Below are positions 1 to 13,950 of a DNA stretch of 64,000 nt, in pieces. The DNA comes from Haloterrigena gelatinilytica. GTDB taxonomy: Archaea > Halobacteriota > Halobacteria > Halobacteriales > Natrialbaceae. The DNA lies in assembly GCF_013342145.1 (NCBI RefSeq), contig NZ_JABUQZ010000001.1:2108001-2172000 (forward strand). The letters run 5' to 3'. The first letter of the stretch is position 1. The number at the start of each line of letters is the position of its first letter. A program made the translations under genes and the position numbers. The notes under the pieces were generated by a model. The model saw nothing but the letters and a program-made list of their open reading frames with translations. It was not told the DNA's origin and made no database searches.

Positions 1-481
1 GGTAGTCTGTCGCGCCGAGACGTAACTGACGGACGGTCGACGCACAAATAGTACTGGATTCGAGTTGGCGAATGTGGGCTGCATCGCACGCGACAGACCA
101 GTGTCGATCGACACACCACCGCGAGAGGGCCCACATCGCGGCGCCGCGAGCGAGAGCCGCGATTACGTCCTCGCCGTCCGGTGATATGCTCCTCGAGCGG
201 ATAGTCGTTCTGCCAAGATTATTAGGTGAGACTGAGTCACACAGCTGTCGACAAATCGGTGGCTCCCCGAACCGAACGCTCGAGACCGCGGTACGGAGAC
301 GAGGTCGACCACGGGCAGTGAGCGGTCGAGAAATAGGGGTGGAACAGTCGCGGGGTCGCCACACGCTACAGACAGTCTCTCAGGAGGTGACCCGTGGCGT
401 CACTCGAGGGCGTCGATCAGGGCGACACCCGCCGCTGAGGGGGGTTCGCAAAACGGACGGTGCCCGGACGCACCAACGACG
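1..481. other. Left edge, no gene recognised
   Basis: I see no supportable gene in this stretch on either strand. The one long open frame on the plus strand (from about 72) encodes an Arg/Ser-rich, basic protein, the opposite of the acidic proteins nearby, so it looks like a shadow. The stretch lies downstream of the deacetylase-like gene at 482-1312. A short AT-rich patch near 218-228 is the only feature. It may be the 3' region of the glycan operon. Confidence 0.5.
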
Positions 482-2633: not shown

Positions 2634-3428
2634 ATGGCACCCGCGATCGTCCACTTCCTCGTCGGCGCGTCGATACTGCTCGTCCTCGCGACGCCGATCG
2701 CGTTGCACGACGAGCGCGTCCGACGGGTGGATTTGTGGCTCGTCCTCGGGGGCGGCGTGTGGGGGCTGGGCCCGGACCTCCACAACGTCGCGCCGGCGTT
2801 CCGATCGCAACTCTACGCGTTCCACGACTCCCTCTGGGCGATTCCGTTCGCCTTTCACTACGCGCTCGACAGCCAGGCCGTTCGAGATCGTCCCCTCGCG
2901 GGAATCGCCGGGTCGATCCTCCTGTTTTGCCTCGCCGTCGGCGGCTTCACGGCGGCCGCTCGGGCCGACCCGGAGCGGGCCCGACGCACGAAACGGTTCG
3001 TCTCGAGGCTCGGCATCCCCGTTGCAGCGCTGGCCGCGGCCGCGATCCTCGGCACGATGTTGGCCGCGACCGGGCGCGTCGAGACCGTGGCCGCGCTGGT
3101 CGGCGCCGACGGAACGCTCGCCAGCGCGGCCCTGCTGCTCGTCGCGAGCGTCGCGGGGAGTTACGCCGTCGCGGTGGCCGTCCCGGACCGCTACGCGCGC
3201 CGGCCGTTCGTCGGCTCGCTGCTCGGACTCCAGCTGGGGCTCGTCGCCTGGGTGGTCGGAATCGTGCTCGTCCTCCCGCTGTGGGCGCGGGTCGTCCTCG
3301 AGGCGTCCCCGCCCGTGCCGCTCGTCGACTGGCCGAGTCTGCTGGCGCTCGCGGTCGCCGGGACGCTGGTCGGCGCCTGCGTCACGACCGTGCGTCGGGT
3401 CGCCCTGCCGGCGCCCGCGGATCGCTGA
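2634..3428 (+). CDS. multi-pass membrane protein, unknown function
   Basis: An integral membrane protein of 264 residues from the ATG at 2634. An upstream in-frame start at 2559 would add a 25-residue tail that crosses the presumed promoter, so I prefer 2634. It begins with a hydrophobic helix (IVHFLVGASILLVLATPI), followed by an HDERVRRVDLWL turn and a GPDLHNVAP motif with His and Asp. Five or six further helices follow. The His/Asp-containing loops resemble metal-dependent membrane hydrolases of the YdjM/DUF457 type, but I cannot assign it. No operon partner is obvious; the next gene, a zinc-ribbon protein, is on the other strand. Confidence 0.7.
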   Translation: MAPAIVHFLVGASILLVLATPIALHDERVRRVDLWLVLGGGVWGLGPDLHNVAPAFRSQLYAFHDSLWAIPFAFHYALDSQAVRDRPLAGIAGSILLFCLAVGGFTAAARADPERARRTKRFVSRLGIPVAALAAAAILGTMLAATGRVETVAALVGADGTLASAALLLVASVAGSYAVAVAVPDRYARRPFVGSLLGLQLGLVAWVVGIVLVLPLWARVVLEASPPVPLVDWPSLLALAVAGTLVGACVTTVRRVALPAPADR

Positions 3429-3661: not shown

Positions 3662-4025
3662 GCTGCAACAGTTACAGTAAGCACTAATGAATGTTTCTCA
3701 ATATAATATTTGTCTGCTCGAGGAAGTTATGACATCCGTAACTAGGGATAATACTGGAGAGGGCGCCCCTAATCGGAAGGCCGAGGTCGAGAAAAATTCC
3801 GGAAAACTACGGAGATATCAATGTCGTGACGGTGGCGTACGGCTCGCGTAACGGCCGCCGAATCCGGATCAGAGGGACGTGCAGTTTCGGCGGTCGAGAC
3901 CCGCAATTGAGCGAGAGACAACCGACGGCGGCGCCCCGGAGCTGACGATTGCGTTCTCCCGCCCCGAGTTAGGCGGATGCAAACTATGGCCGAAGGGGTG
4001 GACGTGATGATCGTCCCATCCGAAC
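3662..4025. other. 364-bp divergent intergenic region
   Basis: This separates the zinc-ribbon gene (minus) from the ABC transporter operon (plus). It contains the zinc-ribbon TATA element at 3701-3710, an isolated TTCCGGAA palindrome at 3797-3804, and AT-rich patches near 3715-3760. The ABC operon promoter is less clear; a weak candidate is around 3978-3988 (caaactatgg). No gene is seen. Confidence 0.5.
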
Positions 4026-10406: not shown

Positions 10407-11573
10407 CTATACGGAGTTCGTCGAATTGCCGTCTCTCTCCGTGGCCGCACCGGTCGCGGTGACGTCGCGGAGCAGTCGCAGTTCCTCCTCCTCGCTGATC
10501 CGATCGGAGTGGACGCACGCGTGGACGATCTTGTGTGCGAGCTCGGGGTCGGCGAGCGCCGACGACTCGGTGCCGCCCTCCCGGTCGGTCGTCCCTCGCT
10601 CGCGGTCCTCGAGTTCGCGCTCGATCGCGGCCAGCCGGTCGGCGAGTTCGTCGACGCGGTCGGTCAGTTCGGCCAGTTGCGCGTCCGCGTCCGCGTCTGC
10701 CCGGTCGGTCGCGTCCGCGTCCGCGGGCGCTCGTTCCGACCGGGACGCGGACGAGTCGGTTCGCCGCCGCGTGCGATCGCTCGATTCGTCGCGGGACTCG
10801 TCGGCCGCGTCCCCGGAACCGTCGTCGCCGTCCCGCTCGCTCGCATCGGGGCCGTCGTCGCTGTCGTCGGCGTGGGGCATGCGTGTTTCCTCCTCGCCGT
10901 CGGACTCGAACAGCGGCGCGACGAGCGCGTTTCGGTCGGACCAGTCGAAGCCGTCGATCGAGTTGACGCGCTGACTGATCGTCGGGCTGCTGACGCCGAG
11001 CCTGTCGGCGAGCTCCGCCTGCGTCGCGTCGGGATGGTCGTAGATCGCCCGCAACGTCTCGCGTTGTTTCTCGGTCAGCGTCGATCGGTCGATGGGGAGG
11101 TCGGGTTCGCCGTCGCGAGCCGCGTTCCGTTCGGTCGGTGCCGGCCCCTCGGTCGTCGAATCGCTGGTGACTGCGGCGGTGGCGGTCTCCGACGCCGCCC
11201 CGCCGTCGGTCACCGTGACGTCGGGATCCGAGGGCCGTTCGTCGACCTCGGTCTCGTTCGACGGCGGGGCGGTGTCGTCTCCTGGCGGCTCGGAATCCAC
11301 CGATTCCGCGCCGGTCACTGCTGTCTCGACACCGTTCGGTTCCGCGTCGTCCGTCGGCGACGGCTCGCTCGCCGAGCCGGCCGCCGGATCGCCGTACTCC
11401 TCGAGGACGCGTTCGACCGTCGACGTCGTGGCGCCGCTGACGGCGTCGGCGATCGCTTCCATCGACTCGTCCGGGTTCGCTTCCGCGTGATCGAGAATCT
11501 GTTTGTGGATGATTGCACGCGGCGCGTTCTGTTCGATATCGAGGGTTGCGTTCGAATCGGTGGTTTCACCCAT
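10407..11573 (-). CDS. winged-helix transcriptional regulator with C-terminal coiled coil
   Basis: A 388-residue, highly acidic regulator. A first helical region (about 16-61) looks like a small HTH/UBA-like unit that includes an AIADAVSGAT turn. A long disordered linker follows. The main HTH is at residues 165-210, with LTEKQRETLRAIYDHP, AELADRLGVS as the turn and SPTISQRVNSI as the recognition helix. A coiled coil (about 297-325, heptad-like LAELTDRVDELADRLAAIE) and a short C-terminal helical domain (about 343-372) follow. The coiled coil suggests dimerisation. A striking CCGG-centred triple site overlaps its promoter (11576-11618), which suggests autoregulation. Target genes are unknown; the DUF1616 gene is the closest candidate. 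Confidence 0.82.
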   Translation of the reverse strand: MGETTDSNATLDIEQNAPRAIIHKQILDHAEANPDESMEAIADAVSGATTSTVERVLEEYGDPAAGSASEPSPTDDAEPNGVETAVTGAESVDSEPPGDDTAPPSNETEVDERPSDPDVTVTDGGAASETATAAVTSDSTTEGPAPTERNAARDGEPDLPIDRSTLTEKQRETLRAIYDHPDATQAELADRLGVSSPTISQRVNSIDGFDWSDRNALVAPLFESDGEEETRMPHADDSDDGPDASERDGDDGSGDAADESRDESSDRTRRRTDSSASRSERAPADADATDRADADADAQLAELTDRVDELADRLAAIERELEDRERGTTDREGGTESSALADPELAHKIVHACVHSDRISEEEELRLLRDVTATGAATERDGNSTNSV

Positions 11574-11575
11574 CT

Positions 11576-11618
11576 ACTCCGGTCCTATTCCGGAACGTCA
11601 CTTATAGGTTTCCGGAGT
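11576..11618 (-). promoter_or_regulatory. phased triple CCGG operator around the regulator TATA box
   Basis: Three CCGG cores begin at 11579, 11590 and 11612, with spacings of 11 and 22 bp, so they lie on the same face of the DNA. The outer two are arranged as the inverted repeat ACTCCGG (11576-11582) and CCGGAGT (11612-11618). The middle one is the perfect palindrome TTCCGGAA (11588-11595). The TATA word CCTATAAG on the minus strand (about 11601-11608) falls between the second and third sites and is about 30 nt before the regulator ATG at 11573. A protein bound here would cover the promoter. Confidence 0.6.
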
Positions 11619-11696
11619 TACACCCCCTATTCTTAGATTTATCACCTATAATAAAACGCGCTGAGGCCGCGAGCGGTACGCTAGGGTCGCTCTCCG

Positions 11697-13805
11697 CTAA
11701 TCGTCAGCCGGACCGGTCCGGGTCGCCTCGGAACACAGTTCGCGAGCCCGCTCGAGGACCGCCTCGGCTTCGCGTTCGGAGACGCCGTCGGGCCCGAACG
11801 CCGCCCGTTCGTACCCCTCGGTGACGTCCCGGAGCGGGGCCGACTCCGTCTCGGCGTCCGCCGACCGATCGCTGTACCGGCGGTAGAACTCCCAGTGAGT
11901 CAGGGGACCGGACGCGGCGAACCGGGACTCGAGGGACTGCCGAACGGCGGCGTAGCAGTCCCGGACCGCATCGTTCGGATTGCCGCTCGAGAGCTGATCG
12001 CTCGCTCGCGACAGGAGCGTCCGAGACGAGACGGGGTCGGACGTCCCGGCCGTCGTCGGCGCGTCGTCGTCGGCCTCGTCCGGGTCGGTCGGTATCGGCG
12101 CCGACGCCGACGCTCGATCGCGATACCAGTAGCCGCCGGCGCCGACGGCCGCGACGAACAGTCCGAGCGCCAGCCAGGCCCACGTGGGCAACAGCGAGTC
12201 GGCGGACGTCGGGAAGGAGACCGTCGTCGCGGCCTCCGTCCGCGCCAGGTTGGTCCCCTCGTCGTCGTGGACGGCGACCAGTTGCACCTCGCCGGTGGCC
12301 GTCTCCTCGGGGACCGTGACCGAGGCGCCGAACGCGCCGTCCGCGTCCGTCGAGACCGTCTCGAGAACCGTCCCGTCGGCGACGAGTCGAACCGATTGCC
12401 CCTCGACGCCGCCGCCGGTCGCCTCGAGCGTGCCGTTGACCGTGACCTCCCGCTCGCCGGTGGGACTCGCGGAGACGGAGAGTTCGGGCTCCGTTTCCGC
12501 GACGGTGACCGTCGTCGAGGTGGCGACGCTCGCGAGCGCGCGATCCTCGAAGGGGAGGGAGATCCGGAGGTCGCGCTCGCCGGACGGGACGTCCGCCGGC
12601 ACCGTCGAGTTCCCGGTGGTCGACCCGTTGCTGGAGCCGAAGAGTCCGATCGGCGTCCCGTCGACCGAGACGGCTACCGGGACGTCGTCGACCCGTTCGT
12701 CGCCGACGCGGAGGTCGTAGTCGACGTCGACGCGATCGCCGTACGCGACGGTGTCGGGCTCGACGTCATCGATCGCGATCGTCGGCTCGACCTGTTCGAT
12801 ATCGACCGGGACGCTGGTCTCGCTCCCGAGGTACGTCGATTCGTTCTCGGGGACGTACTCGACCGTCACCGAGTCGGCCGACAGCGGCACGGAGATCGGC
12901 CGGTACTCGAAATCGAACCACCCGCTTTCGTCCGTCTCGGTTCGGATCTCCTGATTCCCGACCTCGAGACGGATCTCCCGGTTCGCGATCGGCGTTCCGT
13001 TTTCGGTTTCGACCGTGCCGCTCGCGACGAGCGGGTCGGTAAACGAAATGTATTCGGACGTCGCCTCGATGCTCAGTTCCGTTTCGACGAACGACTCCTC
13101 GCGAATCGCCGCCTGTTCGGTCTGGACCTCCTCGTTTACGTCTTCGATCTCCTCGGCGGCGTCGGTCAGGTCGATATCGCTGTCGTTGCTGATCGAGTCG
13201 TAGTGGTCCTGGACGTTCTGACTCGAGTTCCCGATCTCCTCGGCCAGCGACTCGAGTTCGCGGGCGAGTTCGCGGGCGCGTTCCTCGTCGCCCGCTTCGC
13301 GCGCCGCCTCGTACTCTTCTTTCGTCTCCTCGTACTCGCTGACCGCCTCGGTCATTCGCTTCTGCTCGTTCTGCGCTTGGTCGAAGGCTTCGGCCCGTTC
13401 GGCGTCGCCGGTCACCTCGACGTACTGCTCGAGCCTGTCGCTGTACTCCTCTCCGACGAACTGGCTCGCGAGGTCGGCCTCGCCCTCGCTGAGCTGGATC
13501 GCCCCGTCTTCGAGCTGTCCCGACAGCCTGTCGGAGAGCCACCGCTCGAGTTCGGCCTGATCGGCCCCTTCGTCGTACTCGTCGGGATTGCGGTGGCGAA
13601 CGGTGTCGTTGTCAGCGGCGTCGTCCCCGCCGGCGTCCGGCGCCTCCTGTTGGGCCGCGACGCCGGCCAGCGCCGAGCCGTCGTCGACGCTCCCCGCGGA
13701 AGCGGCGGCGATTCCGCCACCCGTCGCGCTCAACGGGAAGCAGACGAGCAGGAAGGCGAGGACGAGCGTTCGACCGACGGCGTTTGTCACAGGGGTTCGG
13801 TTCAC
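11697..13805 (-). CDS. DUF4129 domain transmembrane protein
   Basis: A protein of 702 residues from the GTG at 13805. The longer frame to 13928 adds a basic tail without a signal and I reject it. A signal peptide (TLVLAFLLVCFPLSATGGG) leads into an acidic helical region with a long coiled-coil-like segment (residues about 110-240 of the mature protein). Several beta-sandwich repeats of the Big/transglutaminase-associated kind follow, then one transmembrane helix (LPTWAWLALGLFVAAVGAGGYWY). The cytoplasmic DUF4129 domain comes last (RDCYAAVRQSLESRF ... LTHWEFYRRYSD). DUF4129 proteins belong with MoxR, DUF58 and DUF4350 in membrane-anchored chaperone clusters, and those partners are all present within 8 kb. 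It is divergent from the DUF58 operon. Confidence 0.85.
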   Translation of the reverse strand: MNRTPVTNAVGRTLVLAFLLVCFPLSATGGGIAAASAGSVDDGSALAGVAAQQEAPDAGGDDAADNDTVRHRNPDEYDEGADQAELERWLSDRLSGQLEDGAIQLSEGEADLASQFVGEEYSDRLEQYVEVTGDAERAEAFDQAQNEQKRMTEAVSEYEETKEEYEAAREAGDEERARELARELESLAEEIGNSSQNVQDHYDSISNDSDIDLTDAAEEIEDVNEEVQTEQAAIREESFVETELSIEATSEYISFTDPLVASGTVETENGTPIANREIRLEVGNQEIRTETDESGWFDFEYRPISVPLSADSVTVEYVPENESTYLGSETSVPVDIEQVEPTIAIDDVEPDTVAYGDRVDVDYDLRVGDERVDDVPVAVSVDGTPIGLFGSSNGSTTGNSTVPADVPSGERDLRISLPFEDRALASVATSTTVTVAETEPELSVSASPTGEREVTVNGTLEATGGGVEGQSVRLVADGTVLETVSTDADGAFGASVTVPEETATGEVQLVAVHDDEGTNLARTEAATTVSFPTSADSLLPTWAWLALGLFVAAVGAGGYWYRDRASASAPIPTDPDEADDDAPTTAGTSDPVSSRTLLSRASDQLSSGNPNDAVRDCYAAVRQSLESRFAASGPLTHWEFYRRYSDRSADAETESAPLRDVTEGYERAAFGPDGVSEREAEAVLERARELCSEATRTGPADD

Positions 13806-13950
13806 CGCCCACGACAAAAAACTATTCTCTCTGCGAGGGTGACAGCTCGCGCTCGTCGGCGCGCCCGCATCCGACCGCGCCGGCCGAGCGCGTTCGCTGC
13901 AGCCGTCGAACACCAATACCTTCAACAAGATTCACGGAGACCGGTCGGAC

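Follow-up and report, generated by a model that had tools for sequence, protein, structure and literature searches.

To our knowledge, few haloarchaeal operators have been defined to the base. Among the closest described systems is OxsR of Haloferax volcanii, a member of the TrmB family, for which a CG-rich motif located 3' of the BRE/TATA goes with repression (PMC9426492). Another is Lrs14 of Sulfolobus (given as Lsr14), a protein with a winged helix that reportedly covers the promoter of its own gene (PMC9426492). For the core promoter, the pattern reported in Haloferax volcanii is CGAAA/TTWT, leaderless transcripts make up 72% of the protein-coding ones in its TSS map, and a -10 WW element has been proposed for haloarchaea from Haloferax (PMC4983044). 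The Haloterrigena promoter described here resembles the OxsR system in serving a haloarchaeal winged-helix regulator and in the placement of its candidate operator 3' of the BRE/TATA. However, OxsR has a single domain and regulates many targets globally (PMC9426492), whereas the present regulator contains additional domains as well as a coiled coil, and its candidate motif is private to one promoter. Lrs14 is a small protein of Crenarchaeota whose footprint extends over 50 bp, and it is likened to the present regulator by its proposed mode of action. The promoter shares with the core promoter of Haloferax volcanii (PMC4983044) an A-rich BRE, a TATA box and a short distance to the ATG, as in leaderless genes, but differs from CGAAA/TTWT in reading GAAANNTATAAS, followed 12-17 bp on by a fixed G/YG element, an arrangement that is rare in the Natrialbaceae genomes examined.

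The window, that is, the whole stretch of DNA analysed, comprises 64,000 nt of a 4.55-Mb Haloterrigena genome (NZ_JABUQZ010000001.1, positions 2,108,001 to 2,172,000), and its relevant features are collected in Table 1.

Table 1. Features of the regulator gene and its promoter (nucleotide positions are those of the window; residues are those of the regulator).
Feature	Position	Strand	Description
Regulator gene	10407..11573	-	388 aa, winged-helix regulator
N-terminal domain of regulator	residues ~14-65		helical
Winged helix of regulator	residues 165-215		HTH_24/MarR type
Coiled-coil helix of regulator	residues 287-328		
C-terminal domain of regulator			helical
CCGG site 1	11579..11582		near expected transcription start
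Post-TATA element, candidate operator	11587..11595	-	TTCCGGAAT; contains CCGG site 2
CCGG site 2	11590		within post-TATA element
TATA box TATAAG	11601..11606	-	33 bp before ATG
BRE-like GGAAA	11609..11613	-	GG is half of CCGG site 3
CCGG site 3	11612..11615		overlaps BRE; outer CC not conserved
Upstream block TAAGAATAGG	11626..11635	-	kept in 5/5 close species

The regulator belongs with the winged-helix HTH proteins, matching HTH_24 of Pfam at 43.6 bits (cut-off, 21.9) and MarR_2 at 33.9 bits, above the curated cut-off of 27. A search against Pfam and solved structures returned generic HTH models only, and no solved structure was matched. The HTH helices are visible in an AF2 model built from the single sequence, which is of low confidence overall (mean pLDDT, 56); its long helix is locally confident (pLDDT 84-94), as expected of the predicted coiled coil. 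Two further blocks, residues 18-63 (PRAIIHKQILD...VERVLEEYGDP) and 343-380 (LAHKIVHAC..SEEEELRLL), are conserved and match no Pfam family. The gene upstream of the regulator (11697-13928) lies on the same strand across a gap of 123 bp, so that the promoter region formed by this gap serves only the regulator.

Judged by its sequence, the site constitutes the core promoter of the regulator gene, on the minus strand. The make-up of a haloarchaeal core promoter, in which BRE and TATA box stand a short and constant distance before the start codon, was found as GGAAACCTATAAG. The BRE GGAAA is present in 5/5 close Haloterrigena species in the promoter alignment, and TATAAG and its 33-bp distance to the ATG are identical in 6/6 Haloterrigena, including the more distant G005, which has CTATAAG at the same distance without any CCGG. 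We also anchored homologous promoters on TATAA, with one representative per branch (n = 17 Natrialbaceae). The BRE position is A-rich at the same place in all 17, and the TATA columns read TATA in 17/17, A5 in 15/17 and S6 in 17/17, although a TATA word was required when choosing the representatives and these columns are themselves no evidence. The original prediction had placed the promoter of the winged-helix regulator starting at 11573 at this site, and the BRE/TATA kept in congeners bears it out. The position of GGAAACCTATAAG 33 bp before the ATG implies that the transcript is probably leaderless or has a very short leader, which fits the leaderless majority in Haloferax. A 5' end would be expected about 25-30 bp after the TATA box of such promoters, and here at about 11573-11580. 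Two repeats were also observed around the promoter. GAATAGG is repeated directly on the minus strand at 11626-11632 and 11584-11590, exactly 42 bp apart; its upstream copy sits inside the TAAGAATAGG block, and both copies occur together in 4/5 close species. An 8-bp inverted repeat, TTATAGGT/ACCTATAA, spans 11602-11609 and 11644-11651 and includes the TATA box, its distal arm not being exactly kept in congeners.

The original prediction went further and read the site as an operator in which three CCGG half-sites are phased and inverted repeats are nested. Its letters and coordinates are all correct: CCGG occurs at 11579, 11590 and 11612, the outer arms are ACTCCGG (11576-11582) and CCGGAGT (11612-11618), TTCCGGAA is found at 11588-11595 and 3797-3804, and the TATA box lies between sites two and three (minus-strand TATAAG, 11606-11601). 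The sequence is as it was read in the window's genome alone, however, and such an operator is very improbable. The 44 bp immediately upstream of the ATG align gap-free among five close species (the window's genome and G001-G004), in which the window's genome has CTCCGGAAACCTATAAGTGACGTTCCGGAATAGGACCGGAGTAG, G001 has GTCCGGAA and CAGG at site 3, and G002, G003 and G004 have TTCTGGAA, the site-1 word of G003 being GCGG. The logic of nested palindromes fails at both levels, since TTCCGGAA is replaced by TTCTGGAA in three of the five and the outer arm ACTCCGG is restricted to the window's genome among the Haloterrigena compared. Site 1, which on the minus strand reads CYGG 11 bp after site 2, is CCGG in 4/5 close species and CTGG in G135, and G005 has no CCGG at site 3. 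The three words with their spacing are found together in 1/6 Haloterrigena promoters and, within 70 bp, in 1/34 homologous promoters, each time in the window's genome alone; conservation of the spacing in orthologues had been named beforehand as the check on the triplet, which it failed.

Nor do the counts confirm the argument that helical phasing makes chance unlikely. The window contains 725 CCGG against 725.5 expected from dinucleotide shuffles, and its CCGG triples within 44 bp include 5 phased (37 spacings) versus 7 anti-phased (45 spacings). The exact arrangement CCGG-N7-CCGG-N18-CCGG has 10 matches genome-wide, against 10 for the reversed control. The 7-bp CCGG arms are unremarkable here because the longer, 8-bp repeat TTATAGGT/ACCTATAA lies in the same 150 bp. 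Overall, all three CCGG words are incidental: half of site 3 belongs to the BRE and half of site 2 to the candidate operator, and site 1 falls near the expected start. The same arms could instead pair in read-through RNA as a terminator or leader hairpin, and both are paired in the predicted fold; yet the folding energy is no better than that of shuffles (z -0.87), a terminator-like site was looked for and none was found, and the upstream arm is unconserved and located before the expected start, all of which makes a hairpin scarcely credible.

The original prediction had also suggested scanning the genome for the palindrome TTCCGGAA in promoter gaps. It occurs 3 times in the window against 0.92 expected, a count reached by 6/100 shuffles, and at 95 sites genome-wide versus 34 for the reversed word. 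DNA was taken from this genome as 40 stretches surrounding listed sites. According to a home-made codon-usage gene caller, 46 of the 54 sites examined are coding and 8 are intergenic, while 18.6% of the DNA so examined is intergenic; the excess is thus largely coding, read as Phe-Arg (TTC-CGG), and TTCCGGAA was rejected as a regulon word. The second copy, at 3797-3804, is present as described but not conserved, being absent from the two congeners that align there.

The conserved feature of the region after the TATA box is a different one, an element at +12 to +20 (T of TATA as +1) with the consensus GGnYGGnRT across Natrialbaceae and the form TTCYGGAAT in Haloterrigena. The homologous promoters anchored on TATAA have in common the pattern tGAgAAAnnTATAAS followed by this element. 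Mean information at +13 to +20 is 0.60 bits versus 0.18 in the remaining columns after TATA (n = 17), and the highest 8-column block begins at +13. This block is reached in 15/20000 column-order shuffles, and the best 6-column block and best single column in 0/5000 within-sequence shuffles, values that overstate independence since the shuffles ignore the tree and the representatives share ancestry. A better control is given by the saturated columns +7 to +11 of the same sequences, which are close to random. Outside the branch of Haloterrigena and G135, G13 and R19 are each found in 14/14 promoters, and Y15 and G16 in 13/14. YG stands at +15/+16 in 15/17 promoters, the exceptions being G034 and G125, against at most 9/17 at any other tested offset. 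In the G034 promoter (L011), CTGGAAT was observed 10 bp farther downstream than elsewhere, about one helical turn. The post-TATA element as such is short and does not form a clean palindrome.

This promoter is unusually well kept across the family, pointing to constraint on its cis sequence. The homologous upstream regions of another gene of the window (2634-3428), taken from the same family at similar divergence, keep no common BRE/TATA. About ten of the regulator homologues examined have no such promoter, and none matching was found for the Haloarculaceae homologues inspected; hence, the element is claimed for Natrialbaceae only. Within this family, the strict motif has 45 matches in 125 genomes, 16 of which are the promoter of the regulator gene, and the remaining 29 do not exceed a control of about 37 (total summed by hand). 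TATAA-N8-YYGGAAT occurs once per genome in five Haloterrigena, each time at the regulator promoter, and the sixth genome has one unrelated match. From these counts, the candidate motif is private to the promoter of the regulator gene.

Is the element an operator or simply part of an unusual core promoter? Columns +12 to +20 might represent extended contacts of TFB/RNA polymerase in the -10 region of a constitutive promoter. At ~9-16 bp upstream of the expected start, the element falls within the polymerase footprint, it is less strongly conserved than the BRE/TATA in the 17 representatives, and R19/W20 fit, and may simply be, the proposed haloarchaeal -10 WW element (PMC4983044). Yet G13/Y15/G16 are not common to other promoters of the same genome: the five-position consensus G13/Y15/G16/R19/W20 is met by 10/17 regulator promoters (the Haloterrigena promoter, with T at +13 and no G13, is outside these ten) versus 1/19 other own-genome promoters, and elsewhere in Natrialbaceae the strict motif is no more frequent than by chance. 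We therefore regard a core promoter without an operator as a somewhat unlikely explanation.

The preferred reading, to which we give about an even chance, is that the post-TATA element is an operator between the TATA box and the start; the regulator itself would be the likeliest protein to bind there and would limit its own synthesis. A conserved cis element within the promoter of the gene that encodes the regulator is the arrangement expected of an autoregulatory repressor. A protein, most likely the encoded regulator, would bind the element and block the engagement of TFB/RNA polymerase, and the outcome would plausibly be autoregulatory repression; we infer repression because the element is situated between the TATA box and the start site, for which OxsR offers a published precedent in its motif 3' of the BRE/TATA (PMC9426492). 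The idea that the regulator may bind its own promoter thus survives in a form other than the CCGG triplet.

The cis evidence is silent on the identity of the binder, which might be the product of any gene in the genome, and the element could accordingly be an operator through which another regulator controls this gene. Such a cascade is improbable in our view: a regulator acting in trans usually has more than one target, yet the motif is confined to this one promoter, and variants of helix and element change on the same branch. Haloterrigena and G135 have in common the recognition helix PTISQRVNS and the element variant TCYGGAATAGGACYGG, while elsewhere the helix is mostly ATISQRVN and the element GGnYGG. 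This apparent covariation is suggestive but confined to a single branch.

The gene neighborhood adds to the picture of a candidate operator tied to the regulator. In Haloterrigena, DUF4129- and DUF58-type genes lie upstream of the regulator and a DUF1616 gene downstream; its homologue adjoins a nucleotidyltransferase-like gene in Natrialba and Halobiforma and a glycosyltransferase-like gene in Natronococcus, the latter two names being read from sequence. The adjoining genes differ among genera while the promoter stays, so that the element is tied to the regulator gene rather than to its neighbors. Gene 2634-3428 (plus strand) encodes a membrane-type protein without a Pfam match, and in G084, G025, G031, G088 and G027 a homologue of this gene is found within a few kilobases of that of the regulator; its protein is a possible functional partner of the regulator.

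More tentatively, and with less than even confidence, multi-domain winged-helix regulators of haloarchaea, often near genes of cell-surface or polysaccharide type, may carry a dedicated single-target operator fused to their core promoter, tGAgAAAnnTATAAS-N5-GGnYGG, with protein and site covarying, as a compact archaeal autorepression module that moves as a unit from one genomic context to another. The finding itself is modest, in that it adds one candidate operator to a kind already known, and the analysis corrects a plausible but wrong reading of the CCGG words. Conserved across genera at the promoter of one gene only, the post-TATA element would offer a short target for the study of archaeal autoregulation.
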